64,000 bases of DNA, from positions 62,001 through 126,000 of the forward strand of contig DTUF01000024.1 of the NCBI GenBank assembly GCA_012964335.1, written 5' to 3'. Every line of letters begins with the position of its first letter. Positions within the stretch are counted from its first letter, which is position 1. Under the pieces are notes generated by a model. That model was not told where the DNA came from and ran no database searches. It was given only the letters and a program-made list of their open reading frames with translations. Shown in pieces: positions 853-57,384 of this stretch. The position numbers and the translations under genes are program-made. This stretch comes from Candidatus Poseidoniales archaeon. GTDB taxonomy: Archaea > Thermoplasmatota > Poseidoniia > Poseidoniales > Thalassarchaeaceae.

Positions 853-1431
853 TCAGCGGATGCTGGTTGGTGATGCAGTGTACTGCTTCAACATGTACGC
901 AGCGCCACCAGGCAATTCGTACTGAATGTCAATTAATGCCGAGTCGATGAGACCGTCATTGTCTGTCATTCTGATGAAGATTCTGTCACCAGGTCCGAAG
1001 GTTGTGATACAAGGTGAACCACCACGCTCACAGTGAGATATGTCATCCCAGAAGGTTACCATATTCTCGCTGTTACGAGGAGCGAATCCGTACACATTCT
1101 CTTCATCTCCACCACCAGGTGCAAGTGCAGTCTTGTACACTTGCTGTCCGCTAGCATTGGTCCACAATACAGAGACAGTCACTGCCTGTGTGGCTAAGTC
1201 TGTAGCTGCATATGATGTAGTAATTCTCCAGTGCCATTGGTCCTGTTGTAGTCCACTGATCTCTTGTACAGTAATTGATTCTGCTGAGAAGGTCAACCTT
1301 GGTGTGCCCTTGACACTGGTGTCTGCGAGTGAGCCTGCCCACACGTAGATTACACCAGCCAAGACGACTGTGATTGCAACAAGAAGGATGGTTGCGATAA
1401 CTGGGCTAACTGCACGGTCATCGTCAATCAT
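853..1431 (-). other. Archaeal type IV pilin (class III signal) domain, in frame at the 3' end of the giant ORF; possible independent translation from internal ATG at 1431
   Basis: MIDDDRAVSPVIATILLVAITVVLAGVIYVWAGSLADTSVKG..., matching the archaeal pilin N-terminal domain; GAGGAGG at 1437-1443 (minus) 5 nt before the ATG. Confidence 0.75.
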
Positions 1432-4400
1432 TGATTCCTCCTCGAAATCTTCCTCGTCTTCTTCCGCTCGAGAGCGGCTGAGTAGAGCACCAACGAATAC
1501 GCCGACTAAGCCGACTGCCATCAATGTTGGAGCGAACGAAGCAACAGCCTGTGCTGCCTTGGTCTCCACAATGAGTGGTAACTCGCTGTTGGTTCCTGAA
1601 GCAGTCATGTTATTGTCTGCCCAGTTCTTCTCTTCTAGAGCTGGCCTCTCGTACTTCGAGTTGTCAGTGTATTGACCAGTGAATGGATTCACTGTCATTA
1701 TGTCTACGAACACACGAACATCCTCAGATGTCTTGTTCATTCGGACGTAATTTCCAACCTCAACTGATCCACCGTAGTCAGGTAGTGATAATGCACCGTT
1801 TCCTGGACCATTGCTTCCAAGTCTTACACTGCTCTGGTATGTACCATCACAGCCTGCACAATCAGTGTCAACGATAAAGAATGACACTTGCAAATCGTAG
1901 AGATACTTGTATGTTCCATCTGAGTTGATTGGAGCATCTCCATCCATGTGCTGAAGGTTAACTGACACAGGTACCATAGTCTCGCGCAGAACACCGTCAA
2001 TTCCCTTGAAGTCAAATGGATCAGGGGACAGACGTACTTCGTTGAAGTTGTAGTCTGGTCGCAATTCCACTAGGTTGTGGACATTGATGAGTATCTGATG
2101 TTCGCTGCTGGTCTGCGAGTAACAGTTAGTAGTTGCGTCACCATCAGTTGCAAGAACGTTACATGCATCTGACTGTACGTAATCGTACTGTGCTGGTATT
2201 ACATCCTCAGGAGAATCCCAAAGAATCAAGTTCATCAAACAGTAGTCACCAGATCTTGGTGCCTTCTGGTGAATTCCATCATCTGGTATTCCATCACCAT
2301 CTGCATCCTGTAGCATATCCCACTCGCTGCTAGTTGCATCTGTGGTAGCATCAGGAATCAAATCGATTTCCATTGTGTGTGCTGCGTTGTCAATTGTTAC
2401 TGAGAAATAGTTAGTGTATTGACACTTGTCAGTGTAGTACTGAGAGTTATCGATTGTCCAATATAGTTGCTCATTGGTGTTATCGTTATCGCTCATCATG
2501 TCGGTCAAATCAATTGTTAGTAGGTCAGAATCTTCTGTGTCCTCATCTACAGACCACCACCAAGAATCGCCCTCATTATTTGGAGCATTGGCAGTTGAAC
2601 GGATTGTATCTGCTGTACCATCTTGGGCTAGAGTCTGGATGACTGAGCCGTTATTTACATCCCATGGGATAATACGAGTATTATCGTTAGTTGGTTGTAC
2701 TGTAAATGGTACGCTGATTGTTGCCGCAGCATCATTGATTGATGCACCGTCTGAAAGATCCAATACGATGTTACAGGTTCCACCATCTTCATTTGCCTCA
2801 TTGAGGTCAATTTCTAGAGTGGTACCGCCGCTAATGCTTACAGTGAATGGTGTACAATCTATTGGGTCAGTAACTGCAGTCCATGTGTAGGATTGAGGTG
2901 CTTGCTCAGTGTTGTTGTCAGCATTCCTGTCTTGCTCATTAGCTAGACCGTCACCGATTCCCAAATCTTGAACAAATCCTTCACCAGATGCGCCTCCCAA
3001 GAACTTGGTTAGCAAATCCCAGCCTCGCTCTTCACCGGTCACTGGATGTGGCCTCTGAGGTTCGTCGTAGTAGTTGTAGACCGCATTACCGTTAGCATCA
3101 ATGCCTTCAGTAAATACTGGTAGACCTGCTGAGTGTCGTGGGTTGTTGATTACTGGAGCGTCATTGACGTTCTCTACACCAACAAGCATTGACTGACTGC
3201 TGTACAAGCCGTGTCCATCTTTGACAACCAGGTATAGTCTCTGGTTACCAAACTCATTCGCATCTGGAGTGATGGTCATTGTATGACCTGTCAAATCGTA
3301 TGCGTATGGTGATGTTGCATTGCTTGGGTTTGTAGCATCGTTAGTTACAGTCCATGTCAATGTACTCGATGGTTGCTGATAATCTGCAGCCTTATCGGTC
3401 AAAGTCACGGTCTGTGAACCTGAATCTTCATCGTATGATACATCGACCAAGTCAGAAATGACTGGCTTTGCACGTAGGATGTCAATAGTGATATCCTGAT
3501 TCTGATCCATTGCTAGTGAACTATGTGTTCCCCAGTCCCAATAGATGTTATCTGCATCTCTTACCTTAACAGTCACATCATATGCGCGAGGTGTTGTTGC
3601 GCCGGTTGCTGTGAATGTTCGGTGGATTAGCAAGTAATCGTCTAGAGTACCATCAGCCAAATCGCCACCAGCCAATTGCAGTGTACCGAAGTCACCGAAT
3701 GTCTGAGCAGCACCGCTTGTCTGGTTCCATAGCTGTGGTGGATAAACACCAAGCACGTGACCAGAGTTTTCGTTCTGGATGATTGCTAGAGTCTTGATTC
3801 GTCCTGTTGGGCTTCCAATACAGTCCCATGGGATTGCGAACTCAGAGATACCACTCCATGTTGGAGTGACTCCTGGGTAACCAAATCCAGGTGCTGCTTG
3901 CATACCAGTACATGCTGCTGTAACATCGACCCAGTTGCCACCAGGCATAACCTTGCGGATACCCCAGTTTGCACGGTCTTCTGCCCATAGCATGAAGTCT
4001 GCCTCGAATGGCAGATTGTGACTGACATACCAGTTGTCACCAACGTTTGAACCACCTTGCTGGGTATCAAGATACCACATACCGTCTGTGACCAAGAAGG
4101 TCACTCCAGTCAGCATGATGTACAGATTTGAGTTATCCCAAGTCATGTATCCCATTGCTTGGCTAGTCGGGTCAGGGTTGACCGCAACTGGACCAGGCAT
4201 TGCATCGTCTGCAATGTTATAGCCTCCAAGTGGATGGCTTACGAACCAGTCAGTAACTGCCGCTGCACCACCTGCACCTTCTCCAACGGAGATGATGTTA
4301 GAGCGCCACGACGGGCTGACATATTCTGAACGACCAAGGTCGGTTGACTTAATCATCAATCCAACGTTGCTTGCTGCTCCACCCATGTGTGTAACAGTTA

Positions 4401-7400
4401 GGTCAAGGAGGTTACCCTCGTGAATGACCGCACTAGTTCCAATGGTCAACATACTCTGGTTGAGTGTGTTACCAACACTGGTAATGGTTGAGTAAGCTCC
4501 AGCATTAATCTGGGTCATACCTGCACCGTGCATGGATCTCCATGGACCATTTGTTGTTGTGGTCATGTTCTCAATCGTACCTGATGCGCCACTTAGTGTC
4601 TTCAGAGTTGTAGTTGCAGTTGAGTCACCGCCATTCCATCGGAAATCATCGTGACCATCTACTAGCATACCAATGCCACCAGTTGTATCCATGTTTGCAA
4701 CATCTAGTGTGTGGCGACCAGTGTCAGATGTAACATCCAAACCGATACCAAATCCACTATCTGCAGAGACACTTAGACCGTCAACAGTTAGGTCAACATT
4801 GGTCAAGTCAAAGCCGTTGTCACCAGTGACAACTGCTCCACCCTCTACATTTAGAGAACCACCGTCTTGTCGGTATGCTAGGCTAAATCCGCCGATGGAT
4901 GTACCATCAAGGGAGACGTCTTCGCTTCCGTCAAGGATGTCAATTCCGTATGTCTGTAAGTTGCTACCACCTGAACTTGCGGCTACATTGATTACACCAC
5001 TCATGAAACTGTGGATAGTGCAATGATACTCGTAAGTACCTGCAGCTGTGAACGTGTGGGCAAATGTTGAGCCCAAGTTCATTGGTCCACTGTTCCAAAT
5101 TCCAGATGTGTTACTGGTTGTTGAATGCTGGTAGTTGTTGGGGTCGCTGTTGTATTGAGTCAATACCCATCGTACAGTATCACCTGTGCTGATGTTCTTG
5201 ATTGTTGGATTATATTGCGACGCCTCAATGTTCACAGAGTGAATCTGTGATGCTGAACCACCTGCGCTGGCGAATGTGCTGCCAACATCAGATACATCAC
5301 AACCATCTGACAATAGAGCGTTAGATGTTGTGCTGACATAGTTGCCTGACATTGTGACTTCTGCAAGTCCACAGTTCTCTAGGTAGATACCTGTTGCAGT
5401 TGGTGAAACACGTCCACCAGATGCACTAATTGTGTTTCTTGAAATATCCACATCAAATCCAGAGCGGACACCGTAAACGTTGATTCCGCCATCTGCATCA
5501 ATCAGTGTGTTATCTGCAATTGAACCATGACCGTTTAGGACATAAATACCAGAGTGGGCTGAGTTTGCATCACCCTTGATTGTGTTGTTGTTGATATTCC
5601 ACTGCTTAGCATTACGCATATAGATAGGTTCGTCAGTAGTCAATAGAGTGTTTCCACGAATCTCTACACTGTTCAGACGATTGTCTTGTGCGTAGATACC
5701 GTATTGTACTCTCTTAGAGCCTGTTACTGTGTTGTTATCAATAAGCAAGTCATCTGCATCAGATTGTAGGTAAATCCAGATTGGTAGGTATGTGCTGTCA
5801 TACATTGTGTTGTTACTCCAGTGTGCACCATCTGTTCCAGATCCACCATAGGCAGGGCTGGTTGCATAGTAGTTAATGTAAATCATGATTCCAACAGTAC
5901 AGTCGTACATTGTGTTGTTATCAACAGTCCAGTCGCCAGGGTCAGTTCCAGCTGACTGGATACATATCTCTTCAGGATAGACCGATTGTACATCAGTTAA
6001 CTGAGAGTATGACACTAACACGCTGTTAGTAACATGCATCACTGGGTCACGGTTGTAATAACCAGCACCACTTCCAACTGCACCAACGTTAATCAGCGTT
6101 GAATCATTCACATGGAAATTACCGTAACTGTATCCACCGTAATATCCTAGGTTGAAGAACGCCGTATCCTTTGGACTAATTGCTGCCCACGTCGTATCAT
6201 CTAAGTAGATATCTCCGTCATAGTTTCTAACGTACAAATCAGACCATTCATCGTTGTAGAATCCACTGACAATAACTGTTGAACCATTGAATGATGCTCC
6301 AGTCGTACCAGTGTATGCCCAAGGCGAGTCTATCAGAATCGCTTTGTTCTTCATGTCTGTTGGCATCGCACCCCAGTAACCATATTCGGTAATCGTACCT
6401 CCGGCACCATCACCGTTCAATTTGGTTCTAGAACTTGCAGTTGCAATATAGTTAGCACCAGCACAGGATGCCAGTACACTGTAATAAGTTGATTCCCAAC
6501 TATAACATATACGAGCATCAAACCGATCCGTCAGTGCAACCGTATCAGAGTTACCTGGTCCATCGACCAAACTCACCCCTTTGACTGCATATCTAAAGTC
6601 TGCAACACGTGTACTCATTGAGCCAGTGGTGTCGTACTGTACTTTAGCAACAGTCATTATTTGGAATCCTGCTAAATTCACCACTGTCCATCCCGAAGAA
6701 TCAACATAATTGGTGTGGAACAACATATCGTTCACCGTTCCCGCGCTGTCAGTTTCACCTGAGCCCACGCGTCTACTATTGGCATCAATCATGCTCACGC
6801 CTGTTCCAGCGACACCATTACCATCTGCTTCAATAGTCACGTCCAGCAACCTTGCTCTTTGCAAGAGTCCTGAACCCGTCGCTACCACCGTGGCTAGATC
6901 AATATCTCCTTCAATCCAAGTAACCAAACCTGAAGTCGCAACATCGACTGTATTACTACCAGTAGTACAATCAGTACAGGTAAGTTCTCCTGAACCGTCG
7001 TGATTGATAGCAATATTATTGCTTGTCAATGCTAGGTTATTGAAGGCCCAGTCCTTGGTACTAGTTGGTAGAACATTGATTGCAGCTCCTGCAGCATTGG
7101 TGATTGTACCACTTAGGGCCATCTTAATTCCAGATCCTAGGACTATTCCGTCTTGGGATTGGTTGTCTAGATTGGTGTTAGTCAACTCTAATGAGCCAAT
7201 GGCTGCAGCTGTCATGCGAACACCATAGCGACCGTTGTTGACTGTTAAGCCATCCAATTCAACAGATGAACTGCCTGTAACCAATACACCCTCATCTACT
7301 GGGTCATTGACTACAACAGTGTCAATAACACCAGCAGCATAGTTTCCAGAAATGTGGAGACCTGTATCTGATCCATCAATCACACCATTTGCTAGTGAAG

Positions 7401-10400
7401 CAGTTCCAAATTCTCTACCCCAGTTTGCATCCATCAATTCATTGATAGTATTGCCACCACGGAATACGAAGTCATATCGGTCACCGTAGTAATCAGCGTA
7501 GTTGTGTAGAATATCGATGTATGCTGATACATCAGTTACACTTGGACTACTGACATCAACAATTGGCCAGTGCATTTGCCAGCCGTTTGGTGTAGGTGTC
7601 TGGTAACGGTATGCATATGAAAGACATATGTTGTAGTTACCCCAAAGACCGTTGTAGCCCTCTGGAGGCTTGAAGATACCCTGTCCGCCATGGTATTGGG
7701 TGTAGTAGTAACCCCAGTACTCGTACGGGTAGTAGTTCTGTGAACCTGTCAGACCCTCTGCCTTTTCAATTGTGAAACCGAAGTCGCTTGGGTATGAGTT
7801 AGCACCGTAGTATTGACCTGAACTAGTGTAAGGTCCGTAGTTGTTCATGTAGTAGTAGTAACCATACTGATACGAACCACCTGGGCTGTATTGGTAACCG
7901 TAGAGGTTACAGTCGTAACGAGCCCATCCATCGTTTCTTGATGGGTGGTCTGGATTGTTCCTGTCCCCAAGGTTTGAAGTAATACCTGAATGGTAATATC
8001 CAGTCATTAATTTACCTGCAGCATCTACAGTGAAATTCTCAATCTCATCTCCAATACCGTTTGCATCGTTATCAATTCCATCATTGAGTCCAATACGCAT
8101 TCGGTCGTGGATTGCGAAGTAACGGCTTGTGTAATAGTTGTACGTTGGGTGAACGTTTCCGCCCATGTAGACGTTATTGAAACCGAATTGGATGTAATTG
8201 TAATTACTTGCCAATCCAGTCAAATCAATGTCGTAAGTTTCCCAACCACGTGCGTGACCTGATAGTAGAGTTGAGCGGTAGATACTTGGTAGTGTCATTC
8301 CGCCATCAATTTCTACTCCAACTGTGTTATCGTTGAGGGTGAAGCCATCAATTGCTGGGGCTGCATCCTTGATCATTACGCCAGTAGCTGCTCCAGATAC
8401 ACCGATGTTCTGAATGACGCTGGTTCCGGAATCTTCTATCCAAACACCAACACCAGTCTGCTGTGCATTGTATATACTCGCATCGTTAACTAACAGTGTT
8501 CCACCGCTAACCTTGATGGTTGCCATAGACGCAGAGGTCGTTTGACTACCGTAAACTATGGCACCATTCTTCAACTCAAGAGTTCCATCACCGACATTCA
8601 GCGCCCCTCCAGTATTGGAGTTCTGATGCATATCACGGATAGCCCCATTATCTACAACGAAAGTACCGCCGTCTTGGATTTCCATTTCCCAGCCGTAAGC
8701 GCTGGTCACTGCCTTCATGTTACCAACTTCGCCACCACCTTCGGAGAGCAGAATTTCGCCTCCGTTCTGGATAGTGATTGTTGGGTTGTTGTTAGCTGTG
8801 CGGTTAATCATTATCTTTGTTCCATTCAAGTGCAACTTGCACCCGTCAATAACTAAGTCAGTTGATAGAGTAATGATTTGCATTGTGTATAGATAGTAGC
8901 CGTTGGTCATAGATGTGTTTGAATTCAAGAATCCACAATTCTTAGTTGCGCCATTCCAATCTTGTGGGAACGCTTCTAACTTAATGTAGACTTGATCACC
9001 TGGACTTAGCGGCATGGAACAATCCATGCTGTTAATCATACATGATCCTGTATACCATGCGTCTGCTGGTCCTGTCTCGTTCTGACCTGCACCGCCAGCA
9101 ATGGCGATTCGATGGTCTGTGTACGAGGCAGTAACAGTGGTTGATCCACTAACCTTCTCTAACTTATCTTGAAGCAACCAAACAGTTGCGTTTCCAGTAC
9201 TATCGGTTTTAGCTGCGCCAACTGATGTGATATCAGAAACTACACAAGCAGCACCTGGGCATGTACCCGAAGTGCTTACTGTAGTTGTAGTAACTGAATG
9301 GTCAGCAACAAATACTGGCACGAAGTTCATTACACGGTATGCTGCAACTTGAGCAGTACCACCGACATACAATGCACCTGAGGATGATGAAACATCAACC
9401 CAACAGTCAGACATTCCTGTCCAACCAGCTGCATTAGCACAATCGTTGCCTCTCCATGAGACTCCGATTAATCTAACATCACCGTTGGTGCTTGCTTGCG
9501 CCACATACGCGCCCATAGATGTTTGACCGGTTATTGCCACATCTGCGACTGTAACCTTTGCATTACGAGCATAAACGATGTTTCCGTTAGTGGAACTACC
9601 GTCCATTGAACCACCTGCTACGGTCAATGTGCTTGAAGCACTGCTTGAAGTACACGAAGCAGTTGCCCATACACCGTTGGTTGAATCACCAAGGTCAGCG
9701 TCATCAGCTCGGACATTCCAACCGCATCCAGCGATTGAAATACCATCAGCGGCTAGATTTGTGAGCATCACTAAGTCACCGGTTGCTGCAGTTCCATCCA
9801 TGCGGAGATATCCATCTAAGTCTACATTATCCATTGAACCTGGAGTAGTCCTTGACATCACCATATTACCAGTGCTGGTAATTCCGCTAGCGGACCAACC
9901 TGAGTCACCAAGAACAGTACCTGCGGTACCTCCTGGAGCCAACGAGATTGAACCACCACTAATATCGGTTAATGACATACTATCTGTAGCATATGATACG
10001 ATAGCATTTGCATATCCTGCTGCATTAATATTGTTAGCAAACAAACTTGTTCCAGAAGTTGCTAGTGAGGTTTGGCTGATACCAGACCCACCTACTTGTG
10101 TGCTTGATAGCCCACTTGTCGACATACTAACGTTGCTAGCATGTATCGAAGTAGCATCACCCATGACAGCGTTGTGTGCTGAATCTGTAATAGTTAGATT
10201 CTCTAGGTAAATATTGCTTCCGTCACCGGTCTTGATGGCACCTTCAGTAGATGAACTACCCATGTTACAGTTCGTTGCCGAACCTTCTAACCATGTTAAT
10301 CCGGAGTCATCAGGCAAGTCGATACAAGAGTTAGTTGCATTGGTTATTGAAACTCCAGAGAGATCAAAACCAGTACCTGTTCCTGAACCGTGCTTGATTG

Positions 10401-13400
10401 CAGTACCAACATCGGTAAATGTGACTGTGTCAAAGGTAAAGTTACCTACATTTCCGTTGTGGTGAGGTGCACTTCCGTGACGGCTACCTGCACTGATTGC
10501 AACATCTAAGTTGCTGAAGTCAGTGTTGTTGAACATATGCCTGTCATCAGTGTCTGAACAACCGCTTGTGAATGCAATACCCTTGCCGTTTCCGTTACCA
10601 AGGTTGGTAAATGATACTGGGTGAGTTGCATTTCCTTGAGTTGTCAAGCGAGAACATGTCCCTGCCATATCTATTCCTTTGCCGGGTGCGAATTGAACTT
10701 CAACACCAGCATCAATCACTAGATTTGCTGTTACACGTAGGTAATCACCACTTGGCACAACACGAATCGGACTCATTTCTATATCCCATATTGTGTCTTC
10801 AGTAATGTCCGCGTAAACATCCATACCAGCACCATCGAATGGCACTGTCTTTGTACGGATACTGCATTCGTTGGTTCCGCTGTTGTAGCAGTAGTATGCA
10901 CCATAGTAACCAAACCAAGGTGTAAGTTGTGCGTTGCGGATGTATGAAGCAGAGCTCGGCATTTCAGGCCAATAGCCACCCCAACCATAGTACGCCATCT
11001 GCATCGGTGTTGTTGATGTAGATGTGCTGAAAGCAGCTCCGCCGTGGCGGATTACGTGCATCTTGTGACTACTGTTACCACTGTAAGTAGTACCGAAGTA
11101 ATCAATGTCAAATCCTGCTGGGATGTCAATAACATCTCCACACTGATTTCGGTAGTTATACCAATATCGCGTGCAGTAGTATGTGTATGGGTTTCCATTG
11201 GATGTACCGGTGAAGACTTCATCGTAGTTGTACAATTCAGTCATTCCTACTGGCATCCTCTCGTTTGCATGGTTGTTACCATCTGTTGCAATTCGGTAGT
11301 TGTAATCATATGGGTTTGCACCAGCAAGATAACCAGGGCCTCTCTCTCTTAGAGATGCACCAATGGCTGTTGAACCACCCTTTTGATAGCCGATATTCTC
11401 GTAATCATAGTAAGCAGATGAGCCGGTATCGTAATGATACTCGATTTCATTGGTCACATCGTACATCTTAATTTGATAAGAGCACTTGTATTGTTGACCA
11501 AATCCGCAATTCATGTCATGCCATTCAACAGTAAATACCTTGGTTGGCGTTCCAATGTGATAACTCACAGCAGTGGCGTTGTTCCAGTTGTTGTTGTTGT
11601 CCTGTGCGTGAATACTGTATTCAACAGTGTTCCCACGGTCTGTACCTGGAATGTTAGCCGACCAATCACAAGGAATCAATTCGCACTGAGCGCGAGTCTT
11701 GCCTGCTTGCTGAGACATTGCTCGAGTAATCCAATTACCCCAAGACTGGCTAGTATCATTGTACACACGGTATTCAAGATGTGGTCCCTCAAGGACCCCA
11801 TTCCCATCTACACCAGTTGAAACATTCACGCCTGTTGGAGGGTCTCCAGCATCTGTTATTTTTACTGTCACTGTCCTGTCATCCTGACTGTGAGTGTCCA
11901 TCAATCCTGTGTGATCAAAGGTTGGTGGATAGATATCAGGCATTGGCCTAACTGGGCTTACCTTTTGCATGATTTGACTGTTTGCAGACCAACGTCCATC
12001 GTAACCTGGAGCCATCCAACCGTTGAATTGTCGGTCGTAATTGTAGGTACTGTATGAGTAGAGGCAGTAAGGATTACTGCTGCTGCTGCTCAAGAAGTAC
12101 AGAGGATGGTTGTTACTGTTAACACAGAAATGGTTTCTTGTGGTCCTACTTGATGTGTAAGATGCGTTTACACTCAATGTACCGAACTTCATGGTGATGT
12201 CACCAGGAATTGGTACTGCTGAGTAACAGTCATCGCAATTGCGACCACCGCCTTGAGTACCTACTGGTGCGCTTGCAACAGGCTGATCGATTCCAGTTTC
12301 ATCATCTAATCCTACCATTGTGAAAGCACCAAACGCTGTATTGTACCACCAAATAGTGGACATACCTGGGCCGTTTTGACCATTCAGTGTTAATCCCTGA
12401 TCTTTTGGATTTGTAACTACACAGGTTGCAGACTGAGCACAATTTGCGTAAGAGTATCCACTAATAGTTGGGCTGTATCTCATCTGGTACGCTGCATTAA
12501 TGTTGAAGCACTGGTTATTACCAGAGCCACACGAGGAAGTATCATACTCCCAAATGTATTCTTGTGTATCTTCGTAGTATGTAAGTTGCTCATCCATGTA
12601 TCGATAAACCGAATAGTATCGGAAATTGGTTAATGCGTCAATCTTTAGTTGCCACTTGTTGTTACCAGTTCCATCACTATTGAAAACATCTGCATCCTCA
12701 TCTGGTTGCACGAAGTAGTTGTAAGGAGAACTTGGAGCAGTTACACTGCTTGGGGTACCAGTTCCTCCTATGGGCAACGTCTTGAAGTTGGGATTACCGG
12801 TTGATCCGGGAATTGAACCTTTCAAGTCCTGGAATGCCCAGAAATACTCAACATATTCGCCTTCCTGAACCGCAGGTATTACGGCTCGGAAATTACACCA
12901 GTATCCAGCAACACATGTGCCCAAAGTGGTCGCATGTACGTTGGTCCAACTACCGTTGTCAACACTGTAACTTAGTGATGGACCACCACTAGATGTAGTG
13001 TCAACACCAGTTACGTCCTTGAGTTGGAGCCAGAAGGTTCTCTGCTCCGCACGGTGAGTTATTAGGTCAGTGTAAGGCACAAATGTGTCCTCTGGAGGTG
13101 CGGTATCAGAACCGCCACTGTAGTCCAGATGCAAATGTGGGTACTTGGCAGCACTTGTGCAACCATAGTAACTGTAGTAGCCAGAACCACACCAATACCA
13201 GAACGGTGCGTTAGCGGTATTTCTCAGACCAAGTCCAAGAATGTTTCCGCTTGAACCTGCTCCATTACCGTCAACTGCGTCTTGTACGTCATCGATTCCA
13301 TTTTGATTCATACCAATGGTTCGTACGTTACCGCCATTCCAATAGTAACCTGGGTCACTTAATGACGTAGACGAAGACGACGCTGCGCTGTTCCTAATAT

Positions 13401-14778
13401 AGCGATTCAAATTTCTACCACTACTGTATAGATAGCTACTCGGGTCAATCACGTTGCTCGTTTGACTAGAGCCAGACTTCAGTACAGCAACTTCGAAATT
13501 ACGTGCCCCGCTTTGGTACCTGCCAACGCTAGATTTGAAATCTACACTGTTAACAGTCGCACCAGTTGGTAACGCACTATTGAAGTCAAAGCGGTACCAA
13601 GCGTATCGGTAGTACCATGTGTAACTACCCGATGTACAGGTGTTAGCGGCAGACCCTGAACCTCTGCAAGTGTAAAGCAATGAAGAGCTAGAGAATGCGT
13701 ATTCATATGTGGATGTGTACCAACCCCATCGAGTGATGCGGTAGTAGTACGCATATCCAGTACGCTGAACACCCTTGTCCATAGTTGGATCAATAGCAAT
13801 TGGGAACGAGCGGTTATCACTGTCCATCAGCCATGTGTTCTCAACAACTGTTGTCAGAGTAACTTCCTCTCCCCGAACCGTAATCAGGTACTCGCCGATG
13901 TGAGGGCCTTCATCTGTAGGCTCAATACTTTCAACGAGAGGTGGCGGGATTTTTACCAATTCCTCACCTGTTGCCAAATTGCGGATACTGAGGGATTGGT
14001 TAGTCTTCACCAATTCTCCATCTGCAATAGGCGACTCACCTAGGAAGATAGCATATCCGGGTGGCAGAATCATTGTTTCTGCAATACCGAAGTATCCTGA
14101 CTCCTTCTGGTGGTCAAGTAGCATTGGTGCTTCTCGGATGACAAGGTTCTGCTTCAACTGGGTTGAAGTTACCTTGTAATCAAGCGAAATGCCGGTCATC
14201 ATAGGATACCTAATCACATTTCCACCAATATCAATAGGCTCACTGCTAGGCTTTGCCATGTAAGGTTCTGGAGATAGCGTGTTGCCATCTAGAACCACTA
14301 CTTGTGGCATAATACCATAGCGAATGGTTTGCCCATTAACTACCATTTGGACACCCTGACGAGCATCGTTTCCGAAGTAGGTTTCGTATGTGTTCTGTGT
14401 TACACTCCATCCTCCTTCATTGGACTCGATTGTCAAGTCTATCTCTTCCCAGGCACCATTGTCCAAGTAATGGACTGGCACTGGAGAGACAATAACTTCG
14501 AAATCACCATTTTCCTTCAAGAAGGTCTTGGCGGTTTCGGTACGGGAACCGATTAGCTCGGCACCTGCGTCATATCCAAATTCATCATTATCTGCCGGAT
14601 TCATTGCTTCATCCGGTAGAGTCAGCAGGTCATCAATAGACTCTGCCCCATCGTTTTCAGAAGTCTGTAATTTCTCCGTTACCGGCGAAACCGCAGCGCT
14701 CCAACTCATTCCAATCATCAGGAGAGTTAGCAAAAGCCAACTGCCCCCAAAGGTCACTTTATTTTTGTTTGTCACCAT
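853..14778 (-). CDS. Giant (4641 aa) secreted, membrane-anchored beta-helix surface protein with amicyanin-like, CBM9/DOMON-like and cadherin-like modules and a C-terminal type IV pilin domain
   Basis: Single ORF; N-terminal signal peptide (LLLTLLMIGMSWSAAVS); many right-handed beta-helix style repeats; cupredoxin motif HCTIHSFM; TM (FAPTLMAVGLVGVFVGALLSRSR), acidic tail, then DDRAVSPVIATILLVAITVVLAGVIYVWAG. Confidence 0.9.
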   Translation of the reverse strand: MVTNKNKVTFGGSWLLLTLLMIGMSWSAAVSPVTEKLQTSENDGAESIDDLLTLPDEAMNPADNDEFGYDAGAELIGSRTETAKTFLKENGDFEVIVSPVPVHYLDNGAWEEIDLTIESNEGGWSVTQNTYETYFGNDARQGVQMVVNGQTIRYGIMPQVVVLDGNTLSPEPYMAKPSSEPIDIGGNVIRYPMMTGISLDYKVTSTQLKQNLVIREAPMLLDHQKESGYFGIAETMILPPGYAIFLGESPIADGELVKTNQSLSIRNLATGEELVKIPPPLVESIEPTDEGPHIGEYLITVRGEEVTLTTVVENTWLMDSDNRSFPIAIDPTMDKGVQRTGYAYYYRITRWGWYTSTYEYAFSSSSLLYTCRGSGSAANTCTSGSYTWYYRYAWYRFDFNSALPTGATVNSVDFKSSVGRYQSGARNFEVAVLKSGSSQTSNVIDPSSYLYSSGRNLNRYIRNSAASSSSTSLSDPGYYWNGGNVRTIGMNQNGIDDVQDAVDGNGAGSSGNILGLGLRNTANAPFWYWCGSGYYSYYGCTSAAKYPHLHLDYSGGSDTAPPEDTFVPYTDLITHRAEQRTFWLQLKDVTGVDTTSSGGPSLSYSVDNGSWTNVHATTLGTCVAGYWCNFRAVIPAVQEGEYVEYFWAFQDLKGSIPGSTGNPNFKTLPIGGTGTPSSVTAPSSPYNYFVQPDEDADVFNSDGTGNNKWQLKIDALTNFRYYSVYRYMDEQLTYYEDTQEYIWEYDTSSCGSGNNQCFNINAAYQMRYSPTISGYSYANCAQSATCVVTNPKDQGLTLNGQNGPGMSTIWWYNTAFGAFTMVGLDDETGIDQPVASAPVGTQGGGRNCDDCYSAVPIPGDITMKFGTLSVNASYTSSRTTRNHFCVNSNNHPLYFLSSSSSNPYCLYSYSTYNYDRQFNGWMAPGYDGRWSANSQIMQKVSPVRPMPDIYPPTFDHTGLMDTHSQDDRTVTVKITDAGDPPTGVNVSTGVDGNGVLEGPHLEYRVYNDTSQSWGNWITRAMSQQAGKTRAQCELIPCDWSANIPGTDRGNTVEYSIHAQDNNNNWNNATAVSYHIGTPTKVFTVEWHDMNCGFGQQYKCSYQIKMYDVTNEIEYHYDTGSSAYYDYENIGYQKGGSTAIGASLRERGPGYLAGANPYDYNYRIATDGNNHANERMPVGMTELYNYDEVFTGTSNGNPYTYYCTRYWYNYRNQCGDVIDIPAGFDIDYFGTTYSGNSSHKMHVIRHGGAAFSTSTSTTPMQMAYYGWGGYWPEMPSSASYIRNAQLTPWFGYYGAYYCYNSGTNECSIRTKTVPFDGAGMDVYADITEDTIWDIEMSPIRVVPSGDYLRVTANLVIDAGVEVQFAPGKGIDMAGTCSRLTTQGNATHPVSFTNLGNGNGKGIAFTSGCSDTDDRHMFNNTDFSNLDVAISAGSRHGSAPHHNGNVGNFTFDTVTFTDVGTAIKHGSGTGTGFDLSGVSITNATNSCIDLPDDSGLTWLEGSATNCNMGSSSTEGAIKTGDGSNIYLENLTITDSAHNAVMGDATSIHASNVSMSTSGLSSTQVGGSGISQTSLATSGTSLFANNINAAGYANAIVSYATDSMSLTDISGGSISLAPGGTAGTVLGDSGWSASGITSTGNMVMSRTTPGSMDNVDLDGYLRMDGTAATGDLVMLTNLAADGISIAGCGWNVRADDADLGDSTNGVWATASCTSSSASSTLTVAGGSMDGSSTNGNIVYARNAKVTVADVAITGQTSMGAYVAQASTNGDVRLIGVSWRGNDCANAAGWTGMSDCWVDVSSSSGALYVGGTAQVAAYRVMNFVPVFVADHSVTTTTVSTSGTCPGAACVVSDITSVGAAKTDSTGNATVWLLQDKLEKVSGSTTVTASYTDHRIAIAGGAGQNETGPADAWYTGSCMINSMDCSMPLSPGDQVYIKLEAFPQDWNGATKNCGFLNSNTSMTNGYYLYTMQIITLSTDLVIDGCKLHLNGTKIMINRTANNNPTITIQNGGEILLSEGGGEVGNMKAVTSAYGWEMEIQDGGTFVVDNGAIRDMHQNSNTGGALNVGDGTLELKNGAIVYGSQTTSASMATIKVSGGTLLVNDASIYNAQQTGVGVWIEDSGTSVIQNIGVSGAATGVMIKDAAPAIDGFTLNDNTVGVEIDGGMTLPSIYRSTLLSGHARGWETYDIDLTGLASNYNYIQFGFNNVYMGGNVHPTYNYYTSRYFAIHDRMRIGLNDGIDNDANGIGDEIENFTVDAAGKLMTGYYHSGITSNLGDRNNPDHPSRNDGWARYDCNLYGYQYSPGGSYQYGYYYYMNNYGPYTSSGQYYGANSYPSDFGFTIEKAEGLTGSQNYYPYEYWGYYYTQYHGGQGIFKPPEGYNGLWGNYNICLSYAYRYQTPTPNGWQMHWPIVDVSSPSVTDVSAYIDILHNYADYYGDRYDFVFRGGNTINELMDANWGREFGTASLANGVIDGSDTGLHISGNYAAGVIDTVVVNDPVDEGVLVTGSSSVELDGLTVNNGRYGVRMTAAAIGSLELTNTNLDNQSQDGIVLGSGIKMALSGTITNAAGAAINVLPTSTKDWAFNNLALTSNNIAINHDGSGELTCTDCTTGSNTVDVATSGLVTWIEGDIDLATVVATGSGLLQRARLLDVTIEADGNGVAGTGVSMIDANSRRVGSGETDSAGTVNDMLFHTNYVDSSGWTVVNLAGFQIMTVAKVQYDTTGSMSTRVADFRYAVKGVSLVDGPGNSDTVALTDRFDARICYSWESTYYSVLASCAGANYIATASSRTKLNGDGAGGTITEYGYWGAMPTDMKNKAILIDSPWAYTGTTGASFNGSTVIVSGFYNDEWSDLYVRNYDGDIYLDDTTWAAISPKDTAFFNLGYYGGYSYGNFHVNDSTLINVGAVGSGAGYYNRDPVMHVTNSVLVSYSQLTDVQSVYPEEICIQSAGTDPGDWTVDNNTMYDCTVGIMIYINYYATSPAYGGSGTDGAHWSNNTMYDSTYLPIWIYLQSDADDLLIDNNTVTGSKRVQYGIYAQDNRLNSVEIRGNTLLTTDEPIYMRNAKQWNINNNTIKGDANSAHSGIYVLNGHGSIADNTLIDADGGINVYGVRSGFDVDISRNTISASGGRVSPTATGIYLENCGLAEVTMSGNYVSTTSNALLSDGCDVSDVGSTFASAGGSASQIHSVNIEASQYNPTIKNISTGDTVRWVLTQYNSDPNNYQHSTTSNTSGIWNSGPMNLGSTFAHTFTAAGTYEYHCTIHSFMSGVINVAASSGGSNLQTYGIDILDGSEDVSLDGTSIGGFSLAYRQDGGSLNVEGGAVVTGDNGFDLTNVDLTVDGLSVSADSGFGIGLDVTSDTGRHTLDVANMDTTGGIGMLVDGHDDFRWNGGDSTATTTLKTLSGASGTIENMTTTTNGPWRSMHGAGMTQINAGAYSTITSVGNTLNQSMLTIGTSAVIHEGNLLDLTVTHMGGAASNVGLMIKSTDLGRSEYVSPSWRSNIISVGEGAGGAAAVTDWFVSHPLGGYNIADDAMPGPVAVNPDPTSQAMGYMTWDNSNLYIMLTGVTFLVTDGMWYLDTQQGGSNVGDNWYVSHNLPFEADFMLWAEDRANWGIRKVMPGGNWVDVTAACTGMQAAPGFGYPGVTPTWSGISEFAIPWDCIGSPTGRIKTLAIIQNENSGHVLGVYPPQLWNQTSGAAQTFGDFGTLQLAGGDLADGTLDDYLLIHRTFTATGATTPRAYDVTVKVRDADNIYWDWGTHSSLAMDQNQDITIDILRAKPVISDLVDVSYDEDSGSQTVTLTDKAADYQQPSSTLTWTVTNDATNPSNATSPYAYDLTGHTMTITPDANEFGNQRLYLVVKDGHGLYSSQSMLVGVENVNDAPVINNPRHSAGLPVFTEGIDANGNAVYNYYDEPQRPHPVTGEERGWDLLTKFLGGASGEGFVQDLGIGDGLANEQDRNADNNTEQAPQSYTWTAVTDPIDCTPFTVSISGGTTLEIDLNEANEDGGTCNIVLDLSDGASINDAAATISVPFTVQPTNDNTRIIPWDVNNGSVIQTLAQDGTADTIRSTANAPNNEGDSWWWSVDEDTEDSDLLTIDLTDMMSDNDNTNEQLYWTIDNSQYYTDKCQYTNYFSVTIDNAAHTMEIDLIPDATTDATSSEWDMLQDADGDGIPDDGIHQKAPRSGDYCLMNLILWDSPEDVIPAQYDYVQSDACNVLATDGDATTNCYSQTSSEHQILINVHNLVELRPDYNFNEVRLSPDPFDFKGIDGVLRETMVPVSVNLQHMDGDAPINSDGTYKYLYDLQVSFFIVDTDCAGCDGTYQSSVRLGSNGPGNGALSLPDYGGSVEVGNYVRMNKTSEDVRVFVDIMTVNPFTGQYTDNSKYERPALEEKNWADNNMTASGTNSELPLIVETKAAQAVASFAPTLMAVGLVGVFVGALLSRSRAEEDEEDFEEESMIDDDRAVSPVIATILLVAITVVLAGVIYVWAGSLADTSVKGTPRLTFSAESITVQEISGLQQDQWHWRITTSYAATDLATQAVTVSVLWTNASGQQVYKTALAPGGGDEENVYGFAPRNSENMVTFWDDISHCERGGSPCITTFGPGDRIFIRMTDNDGLIDSALIDIQYELPGGAAYMLKQYTASPTSIR
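3655..4330 (-). other. CBM9/DOMON-like domain inside the giant protein, resembling the N-terminal domain of the GH57 protein in this window
   Basis: LPFEADFMLWAEDRANWGIR...GNWVDVT...SGISEFAIPWDCIGSPTGRIKTLAIIQNE versus GH57 LPFAADFAFVIEDSSYFSLQ...SAWVAADQTDV...NTEISIPWNNIGSPTSLAVIVWSQ. Confidence 0.65.
4979..5244 (-). other. Cupredoxin (amicyanin-like) domain inside the giant protein
   Basis: IHSVNIEASQYNPTIKNISTGDTVRWVLTQ...NYQHSTTS...FTAAGTYEYHCTIHSFMSGVINVAA; ligand pattern H...C-x2-H-x2-M as in amicyanin (HCTPHPFM). Confidence 0.8.
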
Positions 14779-26291: not shown

Positions 26292-28901
26292 ATGTATGGC
26301 CTCTTTGTGGCAAGCAACCTCCGACTTACACTGTTTCTCGCCGCCCTACTGCTAATTGCAAGTTTAGCGGCAATTGCGAATAATAATCGAATTGAATCAG
26401 ATTCTAGCAACGTGTATCTAGAATTGGACGATTACTCCCCTACCAGCGCTAGAAGTGAAACGCAAATCACACTCTCAGTTTGGTACACCTTCGCTTCTGA
26501 GAGTAAAGAAGAAGAAACATATTTGGATGCTATAGGAGGTTTTGAGCAGGCAAATCCACACATTTCCGTTGAATCAACAATGGTCCCATATGGTAATGCG
26601 GACCAACTTTTCATGACTGCCGCCCAAGGCGGAGAAGCACCTGACCTAGTACGTCTTTCAAGTGACCAGCTCGGTAAGATAGGGGAGGTAAGGGTGGATG
26701 GTTACCCACTATTGGAAGATTTACGGCCCCACTTAACACCTAATCAGCTTGGCCAGTTTGACCAGCGTGCAGTAACCGGGATGTACTACGGAGAATCCCT
26801 CTTAGGTATACCAGCCAGCCAAGATTGTCTTTCATTATTGTATAATAAAGCAATTTTTGATGCTCAAGGACTGGATTATCCCGATGATACTTGGACTACT
26901 GATGATCTTCTCTCAGCCGCTAAAAACCTCACTTACGGTGATGTCAAAGGACTTGCATTGCCTGTTAAAGTGGCTTACTGGTGGTTCCCATTTCAGGAAG
27001 GTTTTGGTGGCCATCTGTTTGATGAAAGTGGAAATCCGACCTTAGATTCTAACGGTTCTGCTGCAGCTGTTGATTGGTTATTCGCTTTGGAGAAAGAACA
27101 CGGTGTGGTTGCAACGGGGACACAAATTGAATCAATGAAATCCCAATTTATCACTTCCAAAGCAGCAATGATTGTTGATGGTCCTTGGAATTGGGCAACA
27201 TACGAATCTAGCCGTCTCAATGTAGGCCAGTCACTTCTGCCAATCGTTGAGGAGAGTGGACTACGAAGTTCACCATTGGTTACTTACAAAGGTTGGTCGG
27301 TGACAAAACAGAGTAGCCAGAAAGTCGCTTCTACTGACCTGGCATTGTGGTTATCTTCACCATCTGTTCAGCGAGATTTTGCACTTGATACTTACACAAT
27401 GCCAACTTCAATTGAGTTGTACACAGACCCCCAAATTACTGAAAATGAGGTTATTTCAGGGTTTTTATCGCAAGCACAAGTTGGAACACCTGCCCCAACA
27501 ACAAGAGGAATGGCTCTAGTGTATGGTCCACTAGGCACAGCCTTTGAGCAGGTGTACACCGACTCTTCAACATCACAACAAGCATTGAGTGGAGCAAATT
27601 CAGAATTGATTAATTTGTTAGCAGAATCACAACAAGCAGAAGCCTCCCAATTGGTTGATGGTTATCGAACTATCAGTATTTCATTCATTGATGAAAGTGG
27701 ATACGACTTGTATCGTATTTCTTTTGATGGTGAAGAACATTCAACCTATCCCAACAATGCTGATTGTTTCAACACTGAGAGTCAATGGAACTGCAACTTA
27801 ACAGGAATGATTCCCGGGAAAATGCATGATATTTTGGTTATTGGTGAAGGCCTTAACGGAACGTCTGAATCTTCCACTTTATTGACTATGAATATGTCAA
27901 GCGAGGTGCAAGATGAAATTCCACCTCCGGCAGATACATCTCCAATTCTATTTGCTGTCGGTTCAATCGTTTTTTCACTCATCGCTCTACTTTCATTCCT
28001 GCGTTGGCGCGATGCACGGGCCGGAAAAACCCGTTCTAAACTCGCCCACTTTTATGTCGCGCCAGCTCTTGTCGCGTTAGCAGTCCTCACTTTTTATCCT
28101 GTTTTCTACGGAATTTGGCTATCTTTCACTAATGCTGACCAGACTCACTTAGGAGAACAAGCATGGGTCGGTCTTGCAAATTTCGCTGAAGTTTTTACTG
28201 AGTCAGGGTTTGTCAGAGTTACTCTCTTCACACTGATTTGGACAGTCGTGAATGTTAGCGCACATATTGGACTTGGCCTATTACTAGCAATTCTCCTGAA
28301 TAACAAACATGTGAGGGGAAGGGTTGCTTATCGCACAATACTTCTCTTGCCTTGGGCAATACCATCGTACATCTCCGTCCTAGTGTGGCGAGGTATGCTA
28401 GAGCCCGCTGGGCTTATCAACGACATTCTTGGCACTGATTTCAATTTCTTAGCCGACCCAACTGGTGCGAAAGCGCTAGTTATAATGGTCAACATTTGGC
28501 TCGGTGTTCCTTTCATGATGATGTCACTTAGTGGGGCATTGCAATCACTACCTCAAGAAATGTATGAAGCGGCAGAACTGGATGGTATCTCTAGTTGGGC
28601 ACGGTTCCGTCACCTGACTCTTCCTAACTTAAAATCGGCTATGGTTCCTCTTTCATTGCTTGGATTTATTTGGACATTTAACATGTTCAATGTCATCTAT
28701 CTAATGACTGATGGCGGGCCTAACCTCTACTTTGGTGAACCAGGTTCAACAGATATTCTCATCACTTATGTGTATGATATTGCCTTCAGGGATGGCGCTT
28801 ACGGTGTAGCTGCTGCATGGTCTGTTGTCATCTTCTTGATGTTACTAGGATTCTCAGTGGTTTACATGAAGCAAACCAATGCAACGGAGGCGGTCACATG
28901 A
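26292..28901 (+). CDS. Fused extracellular solute-binding protein + MalF-type permease (maltodextrin-type ABC importer)
   Basis: SBP family 1 features (LSVWYTFASESKEEETYLDAIGGFEQANPHISVE..., AAMIVDGPWNW, ...STDLALWLSSPSVQRDFAL) followed by a TM and a MalF permease (APALVALAVLTFYPVFYGIWLSFTN...; EAAELDGISSWARFRHLTLPNLK). Confidence 0.92.
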   Translation: MYGLFVASNLRLTLFLAALLLIASLAAIANNNRIESDSSNVYLELDDYSPTSARSETQITLSVWYTFASESKEEETYLDAIGGFEQANPHISVESTMVPYGNADQLFMTAAQGGEAPDLVRLSSDQLGKIGEVRVDGYPLLEDLRPHLTPNQLGQFDQRAVTGMYYGESLLGIPASQDCLSLLYNKAIFDAQGLDYPDDTWTTDDLLSAAKNLTYGDVKGLALPVKVAYWWFPFQEGFGGHLFDESGNPTLDSNGSAAAVDWLFALEKEHGVVATGTQIESMKSQFITSKAAMIVDGPWNWATYESSRLNVGQSLLPIVEESGLRSSPLVTYKGWSVTKQSSQKVASTDLALWLSSPSVQRDFALDTYTMPTSIELYTDPQITENEVISGFLSQAQVGTPAPTTRGMALVYGPLGTAFEQVYTDSSTSQQALSGANSELINLLAESQQAEASQLVDGYRTISISFIDESGYDLYRISFDGEEHSTYPNNADCFNTESQWNCNLTGMIPGKMHDILVIGEGLNGTSESSTLLTMNMSSEVQDEIPPPADTSPILFAVGSIVFSLIALLSFLRWRDARAGKTRSKLAHFYVAPALVALAVLTFYPVFYGIWLSFTNADQTHLGEQAWVGLANFAEVFTESGFVRVTLFTLIWTVVNVSAHIGLGLLLAILLNNKHVRGRVAYRTILLLPWAIPSYISVLVWRGMLEPAGLINDILGTDFNFLADPTGAKALVIMVNIWLGVPFMMMSLSGALQSLPQEMYEAAELDGISSWARFRHLTLPNLKSAMVPLSLLGFIWTFNMFNVIYLMTDGGPNLYFGEPGSTDILITYVYDIAFRDGAYGVAAAWSVVIFLMLLGFSVVYMKQTNATEAVT

Positions 28902-30139
28902 GTGAGGATTTGGCGAAAAAGCACTACCGGCCAGTAGAACTCTCTACCTTGCGAACTTGGATAATTACTGCTATTTTCGTAAATATTGCAATCATCCCAA
29001 TAGAATGGTTGCGAACAGGTGATGGTGCGATGCTTTCAATACTTGATGTTGCAATTCTAGTAATTCTGTTGATGATGTTCCCTGAGAAACAAGAAAGTGC
29101 CAAACGTGATTTTGCTATTCTTGTTGCTGGTGTTGCAATGATTTCAGCAATTCTACGCTTGGCTACATCTGACCTAGTAATCTTTGATTACTGGGCTAGA
29201 GCTTGGCTTCTTCTTCCCGCGGCGATTACAATTTGGTGGATTTCATCACCACATGTTTCTGCTTGGGTAAAAGGCACGATGACAACTGAAACTGCTGCTA
29301 AAGGTCTGGCAAGAAATCGGAGCCTCGCACCGAAACTTTCAGCGCTTGGAGTTCACATCATCCTACTCCATGCTGTTGTATTAGTTCTAATTCCTGTCAT
29401 TTGGATTCTTGATATTGCATTCTCTCCAGGAAATACACTGAGTGGTGCCTTGTTTGACCAATTTAGTACTGAACACTTCTCTAAAATTTTAAATGGCGAA
29501 TCATTCTGGATTTGGTTGCGTAATTCAATTATTGTTAGTGTAGGGACCACAATACTTGGTCTTGCATTGGCAATACCTGCTGGTTATGCCTTCAGCCGCT
29601 TCAAGTTTAGTGGGCGTGAACCTGCAATGTTCTCCTTCCTCTTGGTTCAGATGTTCCCTGGAATTATCATCTTAGTTCCGTACTTTTTAGTAATGAAATC
29701 ACTCGGCCTTCTTAATTCATGGCTTGGTTTAGTCTTAGCATATTCAGTTACCGCATTGCCCCTTTGTGTCTGGATGTTGAAGGGTTTCTTTGACACCGTA
29801 CCTAAGGAATTAGAGGAAGCCGCTATCCTTGATGGGTGTAATCAATCTCAAGTGTTTAGAAAAGTCATCCTTCCTCTATCTGTACCTGCTGTTGCTGTTA
29901 CCGCGTTATTCTCATTTTTGGCGGCATGGAACGAATTCCTCCTCGCTCTAACCTTCAACACATCCAATGAAATGTACACCCTTCCAGTAGGTCTTGCATC
30001 CATGATCTCTTCAACCAGTCAAGCGTGGGGGGATTTCGCTGCAGCATCGATTTTAGTCAGTATACCAGTAGTTTTACTGTTCATTCTTTTCCAAAGATTC
30101 CTGATAGAGGGTCTTTCTGCTGGAGGAGTAAAGGGGTGA
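28898..30139 (+). CDS. MalG-type ABC sugar permease
   Basis: [33 protein letters not shown]...[50 protein letters not shown]; start ATG at 28898 overlaps the upstream stop (ATGA). Confidence 0.93.
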
Positions 30140-30143
30140 AGAA

Positions 30144-30917
30144 ATGGTCGAAGTGAAATTCGAAAATGTAACGAAGAAATATGATGATGGTACTGTCGCT
30201 GTGAATAAATTGAATCTAACCGTTCATGATGGTGAATTTTTGGTTCTAGTTGGGCCGAGTGGCTGTGGTAAGTCAACTAGTCTGAGAATGCTTGCTGGAC
30301 TAGAAGATGTTACTGAAGGACAAATCACCATTGATGGGAATGTAGTCAATGACTTGGCACCGGGTGCTCGTGATGTGGGAATGGTATTCCAAGGATACGC
30401 ACTTTATCCACACATGACTGTTTCAGAAAATCTATCCTTTGGCTTAAGGATGGCAAAAGGGGATGATAAACTATCTAAAGATGAAATTCAAGTAAGGATT
30501 GATGACGCGGCGAGTTTACTCGGATTGACTGAACAACTTGACAAGAAACCAAAGGAATTGTCTGGTGGACAGCGCCAACGAGTGGCTCTAGGCAGAGCAT
30601 TGGTTAGACGCCCGAAAGTCCTGCTAATGGACGAGCCACTATCAAATCTTGACGCTGATTTGAGAAATCAGATGCGGACTGAAATCCGGCGCCTACATGA
30701 TGAATTAGGGACAACAACGGTTTATGTTACGCATGACCAGATTGAAGCGATGACATTAGCCGATAGAATCGCGATAATGGATGGCGGTGAATTACAACAG
30801 CACGCACCACCCCTAACCGCTTACAATGAACCGGCAAACGATTTTGTGAAGGGATTCTTGTGTAAGCATATAGACGAAATAGTTGAAACAGCGAACAATA
30901 TCTTCCAGCAGGAGTGA
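30144..30917 (+). CDS. MalK/UgpC-type ABC ATPase lacking the C-terminal TOBE/regulatory domain (257 aa)
   Basis: [72 protein letters not shown]; ends soon after the [12 protein letters not shown] boundary. Confidence 0.93.
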
Positions 30918-30923
30918 GACTCA

Positions 30924-33656: not shown

Positions 33657-35280
33657 ATAATTCATAGAAATGCACGTAATCTGAAATCATCCTTGCACCT
33701 GTGAATCTAGCACTTGTCGCAATTGCTGCTCGCATGAGATGAGCCCATCTTTGCTCTCCAACCGACCAAGCCTGCAAGATCTCATTTTCTAGCACTGAGT
33801 AAAGTGAATTTACATCTCTCTGGTCATCGCGCTCATCCTCAGCCTTTCCAATAGCCCAGCCATTAACCCCATGTTCACAGGCTTCTGGCCACCATCCGTC
33901 TAAAATTGAGAAGTTCGGAACCCCATTCATTGCCGCCTTCATACCACTGGTCCCCGAAGCCTCCATTGGGCGAACCGGGTTGTTCAACCAAATATCGACA
34001 CCACCGGTCATTGCAAGACCGGTAGCCATTGAATAATCCTCCAAGAATGCAACTGGTATCTCATCTGAAATCTGTTCAGCACCAGCAAAGATGTCGCGAA
34101 TTAGTTGTTTTCCCCCCTCATCCCTAGGGTGGGCTTTACCAGCGAAAACAAACTGAATCTTGCCTGCTCCAATCGCTCTTAGTCTCTCTAAATCACTGAA
34201 CACTAAATTTGCTCTTTTGTAGGTTGCAAAGCGCCGGGCAAAACCAATTGTCAAGCGATCTTCATGCAGCTCAACACCTGTGCTCACATGCACTAGGTCA
34301 CGCAAAACTGCTCTCGCTTGTTGGCGTGCTGAAATCAAATCAGCATCAGGTATTTTCCCAGCATGTGCCAAGATTGCTGGGTCATTACGCCAGCCATGCA
34401 AATACTCATCAAAGATTTCCTTCATAGGAGGAGTTGTCCAAGTAAGGTGGTGAACTCCATTGGTTATGGGTTCAATGTGCGTTCCTTCAAACATTGTAGA
34501 AGCCACCCAAGCATTTAGGTTAGATACAGCATTCACTTGACCTGCCAAAGCGATTGCAAGATGACTCATTGAACATGATTCTTGGCACCCATCAATGGTA
34601 CGTACATTTTCGGGTAATAAATTGCCAATCACATCTTCTACATCCTCCCAAGCAAATCGATCGTGACCTGCAGGAACGGGGGTATGAGTTGTAAACAATG
34701 TTCGTCTTGACAACTCAGCGAGAGTCCATCCTTGAGATATCATCTCTAGAGCAGCAAATGTACAATGCCCTTCGTTGAGATGTAATCCTTTCAACGGCCA
34801 CTCTCCAATGGCCTTTAGGACTCTAATACCCCCAACACCAAGCAGATATTCTTGCCGTAGTCTTGTAGAATCATCACCGCCATAAAGTCGATTTCCTAAA
34901 GCGGCATGCTCAGGTTTGTTCAAGTCATGCCTAGTGTCAATAAAATATACAGGAACCACATGACCACTAATTCCAGTTACATGAGTAACCCAGACGCGAG
35001 CATTTAGAGTGGTGCCATCTAATGGCAAAGCCAATTCAATACCTGTATCTGTGAGGTGTTCTGAAGGGTCAATTTCGGGGTAAGTTTCAGACTGATTCCC
35101 CTCAGCATCGAGGTGTTGTCTACCGTATCCCTCGCGATAAAGTAGAGTTACAGCGACTAGGTCTACTTCCCCATCAGCAGCTGACTTTACATGGTCACCT
35201 GCGAGCACGCCAAGCCCACCAGAATAGGTGTGAAGGTCAGACCATAGCCCAATCTCTGCCGAGAAGTATGCGACTACCAT
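33634..35280 (-). CDS. Alpha-glucan phosphorylase (GT35, short archaeal/bacterial form)
   Basis: VVAYFSAEIG...YSGGLGVLAGDHVKSAAD...HLNEGHCTFAALE...TTHTPVPAGHDRF...ITNGVHHLTW...GFARRFATYKRANL...FAGKAHPRDEGGKQLI...WLNNPVRPMEASGTSGMKAAMNGVPNFSILDGWW. Confidence 0.95.
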   Translation of the reverse strand: MVVAYFSAEIGLWSDLHTYSGGLGVLAGDHVKSAADGEVDLVAVTLLYREGYGRQHLDAEGNQSETYPEIDPSEHLTDTGIELALPLDGTTLNARVWVTHVTGISGHVVPVYFIDTRHDLNKPEHAALGNRLYGGDDSTRLRQEYLLGVGGIRVLKAIGEWPLKGLHLNEGHCTFAALEMISQGWTLAELSRRTLFTTHTPVPAGHDRFAWEDVEDVIGNLLPENVRTIDGCQESCSMSHLAIALAGQVNAVSNLNAWVASTMFEGTHIEPITNGVHHLTWTTPPMKEIFDEYLHGWRNDPAILAHAGKIPDADLISARQQARAVLRDLVHVSTGVELHEDRLTIGFARRFATYKRANLVFSDLERLRAIGAGKIQFVFAGKAHPRDEGGKQLIRDIFAGAEQISDEIPVAFLEDYSMATGLAMTGGVDIWLNNPVRPMEASGTSGMKAAMNGVPNFSILDGWWPEACEHGVNGWAIGKAEDERDDQRDVNSLYSVLENEILQAWSVGEQRWAHLMRAAIATSARFTGARMISDYVHFYELFSHDDSE

Positions 35281-35334
35281 GGGTACACCCGATTGAAATC
35301 AGTCATATCATATCTCCTTACAATCTCAAATAAT

Positions 35335-36624: not shown

Positions 36625-36683
36625 GAACGGCCTACGGCCGTTGCGACCATAATGTTTTGATGTGCCGTCAACTGCCAATTCTG

Positions 36684-52588: not shown

Positions 52589-57384
<4,796 letters not shown>

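Follow-up and report, generated by a model that had tools for sequence, protein, structure and literature searches.

Can a giant surface protein and a type IV pilin be encoded as a single polypeptide, and if so, what becomes of the two parts? This question is raised by a locus of a Candidatus Poseidoniales archaeon. Among the planktonic archaea of the surface ocean, the Poseidoniales are described as the most abundant (PMC6461757); their attachment to particles has so far been debated chiefly via the archaellum. In the stretch of 64,000 nucleotides that was analysed (the window), an open reading frame of 4641 amino acids on the minus strand (853..14778) encodes a Sec-type N-terminus, a giant ectodomain, a transmembrane (TM) helix, an acidic linker and a type IV pilin, with no stop codon on the way.

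A hydropathy scan of the protein detected hydrophobic segments at residues 15–33 (signal), 4415–4433 (TM1) and 4460–4478 (pilin alpha1), and no others. Because the N-terminus carries a Sec-type signal peptide (approximately 14692..14778; this and all features of the gene given below lie on the minus strand), the ectodomain is placed outside the cell. It yielded a cupredoxin (blue copper, amicyanin-like) domain at 4984..5226, which exceeds the PF00127 cut-off and matches TIGR02657 (E 4.5e-9) yet stays under the cut-off of that model, and a cadherin/Ig-like region (Big_9, tandem-95) at 3139..3468, where the matches are weak and below curated cut-offs. The cupredoxin motif was present in six of the 58 relatives checked, and the domain is restricted to part of the order. 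As these were the only matches, the name "adhesin" that the first-pass annotation had given to the giant part is unproven; we regard it as a reasonable guess. A membrane-proximal beta-sandwich "stalk" domain follows at 1561..1995, and then TM1 (1480..1536), which is supported by hydropathy, the AlphaFold2 (AF2) model and alignments; an invariant SF-x-P motif stands before it and basic residues stand after it. The acidic linker, predicted to be cytoplasmic, occupies 1411..1479 and ends in DDxA. At the junction, the acidic tail after TM1 leads through EEES-MIDDDRA into the pilin in the same frame: the C-terminal end reads ...GLVGVFVGALLSRSRAEEDEEDFEEES-MIDDDRAVSPVIATILLVAITVVLAGVIYVWAG... and continues into a 156-aa head without an interrupting stop. 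The pilin itself comprises the alpha1 helix (1324..1410) and a beta-rich head (856..1323).

Removing one base at TCAATGATT would give an ATGA stop/start overlap in the window's genome, which would fit an assembly or binning artefact that deleted a stop codon. However, the same fused frame recurs in other genomes. A match running from TM1 through the head without an intervening stop was found in at least 146 of the 294 genomes of the class, far beyond chance; the few stops reported are placed at the extreme C-terminus, because slightly shorter matches have none. The fused tail was identified in 35 of the 59 relatives searched, including the single-contig genome G036 and counting one contig-edge fragment that covers the head alone (G019), and full-length fused frames in relatives measure 4.5–5.5 thousand amino acids. 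We therefore reject an assembly error, whose probability we consider negligible. The stop-free frame first read in the window is thereby confirmed, and the homologues, which that annotation had proposed to compare, are fused with no conserved stop at the join.

The named records that carry the fusion belong to Ca. Poseidoniaceae and Ca. Thalassarchaeaceae, i.e. both families of the Poseidoniales (MGII). No strong fused match was found outside this order among 393 genomes of the phylum, where the best matches were much weaker, and no split version, with a giant protein lacking the pilin, was found in the searched genomes. These genomes are assemblies of uncultured organisms, mostly incomplete, and the census counts are lower bounds. 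The sister family f3, which we take to be marine group III, has a free pilin of 174 amino acids (MKRRIVNDEQA/VSPVIAVIL). In the genomes that were read, the fused gene adjoins a HAD-type phosphatase gene followed by two further genes, presumably a PolD small-subunit-like phosphoesterase and CinA; this shared neighbourhood suggests vertical inheritance of the fused gene. Matches to the N-terminal 926 amino acids of the giant protein were found in fusion-carrying lineages only. In the draft genome G007, where no fused tail was found, this N-terminal part lies on a frame of 3224 amino acids.

The pilin part matches PF07790 (E 8.8e-10) and scores 49.6 bits with TIGR02537, whose cut-off is 20; its nearest sequences in the PDB are archaeal Pilin_N proteins, e.g. 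8fj5 (E 2.4e-11). Together with the invariant motif described below, these matches bear out the initial assignment of a class III prepilin signal followed by a hydrophobic helix. An AF2 model built from 74 fused tails (mean pLDDT 76.7) includes the stalk (model residues 47–191), TM1 (201–228), a low-confidence linker, alpha1 (244–270) and a beta head (280–421). The mature pilin was folded alone, since a fold search with the whole tail returned mostly noise. Its best matches were 9eq7, 8rey, 7ofq, 5z1l and FlaF (4p94), that is, archaellins, an archaeal filament and FlaF, with some antibody-fold noise and with modest query-normalised TM-scores (0.27–0.42). At these modest scores, the head is beta-rich like those of solved archaeal type IV filaments. 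In a tree of the heads, the free pilins of MGIII and the paralogue sit on long branches. The free pilins at L173–L176 in genomes G007, G003 and G006 are unusual for the length of their mature parts (385–402 amino acids, versus ~155).

The predicted PibD site lies between A4456 and V4457 (1408..1413). In 82 distinct tails, VSPVIATIL is invariant and the linker sequence is otherwise variable; position -1 is Ala in all 82, position -3 is Asp or Glu in 80, and position -2 is free. The distance from the SF-x-P motif of TM1 to the site is 40–43 residues in 73 tails. Free pilins of genomes that carry the fusion have the same motif (e.g. NEQA/VSPVIATILM), and in the window's genome alpha1 of the fused pilin is identical to that of the free pilin at 26 of 29 residues; no significant alignment was obtained between the two heads. 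Within the genus, amino acid change affected 0.8% of codon comparisons in alpha1 versus 17% in the linker. What sets the protein apart from an archaeal type IV pilin is the leader, which is normally short, as 4456 residues precede the site. An archaeosortase-type signal (SFAP-TM-RR) was also considered for this region and rejected; PF09721 was over its cut-off in none of the 59 genomes, with sub-threshold matches in nine.

Two readings of the join had been offered by the first-pass annotation, a polyprotein split by PibD and one gene with two products through internal initiation. The ATG that the latter requires is present as described, at 1431 in the window, preceded by GAGGAGGAATCA and standing after a Shine-Dalgarno-like GAGGAGG (1429..1443 for the two together). 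Start codons with an upstream Shine-Dalgarno-like string occur in 48 of 138 linkers, and a Met lies within the last 12 linker residues in 58 of 82 tails. Initiation at the linker ATG, alone or beside the fusion, could give two products. However, neither element is conserved, even within the genus: close relatives whose tails are 95–96% identical have TTG in place of the ATG of the window, and CTA or CTC stands there in others. The Met residues occupy no fixed position and often fall at -2, which would leave no useful leader, and synonymous change at the junction is just slightly lower than in neighbouring regions. The Shine-Dalgarno-like GAGGAGG string stems from consecutive Glu codons. We therefore rejected an arrangement of overlapping genes or a dual start, which would call for a conserved internal start. 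Judged from the sequences, conserved internal initiation is unlikely, some lineages may use an internal start, and as an explanation of the locus we consider internal initiation improbable. Of the two readings, the polyprotein is favoured, as the site is invariant, the linker variable and PibD present.

The predicted topology, with stalk and head on the same outer side of the membrane and the linker inside, is supported by hydropathy, by the AF2 model and by a set of relatives in which the stalk is joined straight to the head. In L170 (G044:C120) and L171 (G042:C26), TM1, linker and alpha1 are missing, while the stalk is 56% and 44% and the head 58% and 41% identical to those of the fused protein, respectively; L192 (G103:C31) has the same arrangement, judged by eye. 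Such direct joins support the placement of both domains outside. The three proteins appear to be secreted, and in two of them D-rich repeats and another TM anchor follow. At L169 (G009:C255:1-2586), a diverged second protein was observed that has stalk, TM1, linker and pilin complete, with a longer linker (RRSEEEEEEERAEAAVPARSILEDEEA).

Cleavage at the site would call for a prepilin peptidase. The Pfam A24 model (PF01478) alone missed PibD in Poseidoniales, and one weak match led to a candidate of 326 amino acids that scores just under the Pfam cut-offs (PF06847, 28.1 against 29.9; PF01478, 24.5 against 26.5). Its diverged orthologue in the window's genome is encoded on contig G000:C11 (L154:12516-13529). 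Both catalytic Asp motifs expected of PibD/FlaK, LDxKxRRVPN and GGAD, are kept in the two aligned orthologues; the second motif reported for PibD is GxHyD, and its active site lies on the cytoplasmic side of the membrane (PMC4343526). The candidate gene at L154:12516-13529 adjoins a free pilin (EEA/VSPVIATILLLAITVLL) and KaiC/ArlH-like ATPases.

The secretion ATPases of these genomes fall into three classes, a, b and c. Classes a and c co-occur in the same 40 genomes, among them all 35 that carry the fusion; the five genomes with a and c yet without a fused tail, G007 among them, are all draft assemblies. By genus, the fusion was found in 11/11 with the type IV pilus (T4P) systems a and c versus 0/7 without them (P 3e-5, a value that ignores shared ancestry), and this association may reflect one or few losses in one family. 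A link to the archaellum was considered and fits less well. The genes beside the class b ATPase are, we presume, the archaellum genes ArlH/I/J, and genera g5 and g6 retain the archaellum-type set only, with its ATPase and without the fusion. Neither PibD nor T2SSF was found in genera g4 and g8–g11 of the window's family, which appear to have lost their type IV filament systems completely. In published work, an archaellum is reported for all Poseidoniaceae and for half of the Thalassarchaeaceae genera (PMC6461757).

Because an invariant prepilin site lies within a linker that varies in sequence but keeps its length, cleavage is the simplest reading, and we consider it probable that PibD cuts the precursor on the cytoplasmic side to give a pilin and a giant protein anchored in the membrane. 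The precursor would span the membrane twice. Its Sec signal would export the giant ectodomain and TM1 would halt transfer, leaving the short acidic linker in the cytoplasm; alpha1 would then recross the membrane and put the pilin head outside, beside the stalk domain. PibD, with its active site at the cytoplasmic face, would cut DDxA/VSPVI and release, in a 1:1 ratio, the giant protein, anchored by TM1 and ending in its acidic tail, and the mature pilin, whose free N-terminus could join a pilus of T4P system a or c. The giant part might then act in attachment beside the pilus. The wider proposal, that a prepilin peptidase processes a polyprotein throughout the order by cutting the loop between two spans, so that giant protein and pilin arise 1:1 and stay partners outside the cell, is a serious candidate of which we are less sure. 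Against cleavage, no precedent was found for a prepilin peptidase that takes a folded giant membrane protein as a "leader", and the linker is strongly acidic.

The protein might instead remain uncut, with the pilin part serving as a second anchor and an outer domain, so that the whole is held by a hairpin outside any pilus. The predicted topology permits such an anchor, and the stalk and head of L170, L171 and L192, which lack the hairpin, suggest that the head can work off the filament. An anchor alone, however, would not need the exact prepilin motif and near-identical alpha1 that are kept order-wide, and no genome without the pilus machinery has the fusion; we therefore think an uncut protein unlikely. 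A case of similarly low strength can be made for a pilin that is cut but stays as a membrane-held partner, or as a pilus-base or minor subunit, docking the giant protein through contact between stalk and head; the giant protein would then be displayed by the pilus or tethered to it. This is a sub-case of PibD cleavage and does not exclude it. The direct stalk–head fusions of the same three proteins suggest that the two domains stand side by side outside the membrane, but covalent adjacency of stalk and head is no proof of binding.

Known systems resemble the fused protein in part. It shares the class III site, the hydrophobic alpha1 and the beta head with Pilin_N (PF07790) pilins such as 8fj5 and Natrinema PilA2 (8gi2), and the site of 8fj5, NDDSA/VSPVIG, compares with DDxA/VSPVIA here. 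However, Pilin_N pilins start with a short leader, whereas here a surface protein of 4456 residues with its own TM helix precedes the site. Modular pilins such as Streptococcus sanguinis PilB likewise unite a pilin with a large functional module in one protein (PMC8179133). In PilB the pilin module is N-terminal, the functional module is C-terminal and stays attached after processing (PMC8179133); in the fused protein the pilin comes last, and processing would part it from the giant protein. Pilus adhesins of the PilC/PilY1 type are also large surface proteins that work with pilins, but they are separate, non-pilin proteins without translational fusion to a pilin (PMC8179133). The large TM-anchored proteins of archaeal T4P loci are likewise secreted, have a C-terminal TM segment and are T4P-associated; in the portion of that census available to us, they are encoded on separate genes and none is shown fused to a pilin (PMC4858521). 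No description of this fusion was found in the literature searched, chiefly open-access journal papers.

One reading frame kept throughout the order, then, unites a type IV pilin with a giant surface protein, and it is missing along with the pilus machinery. If the protein is cut as we propose, the role of the prepilin peptidase would widen from leader removal to polyprotein processing, and the ratio of two surface parts would be fixed; how these uncultured cells attach could then be approached through a concrete feature open to testing.

By reading, other parts of the window hold further genes. The region 26292-41255 appears to encode a maltodextrin-type ABC transporter together with an amylase, a phosphorylase and a 4-alpha-glucanotransferase, and also a GH57-like surface protein of 1532 amino acids. 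A pair of DNA gyrase B and A genes, in this archaeal genome, lies at 52701-57384, and a 1328-aa surface protein with RCC1-like repeats, a TM segment and an acidic tail is encoded at 57588-61574.
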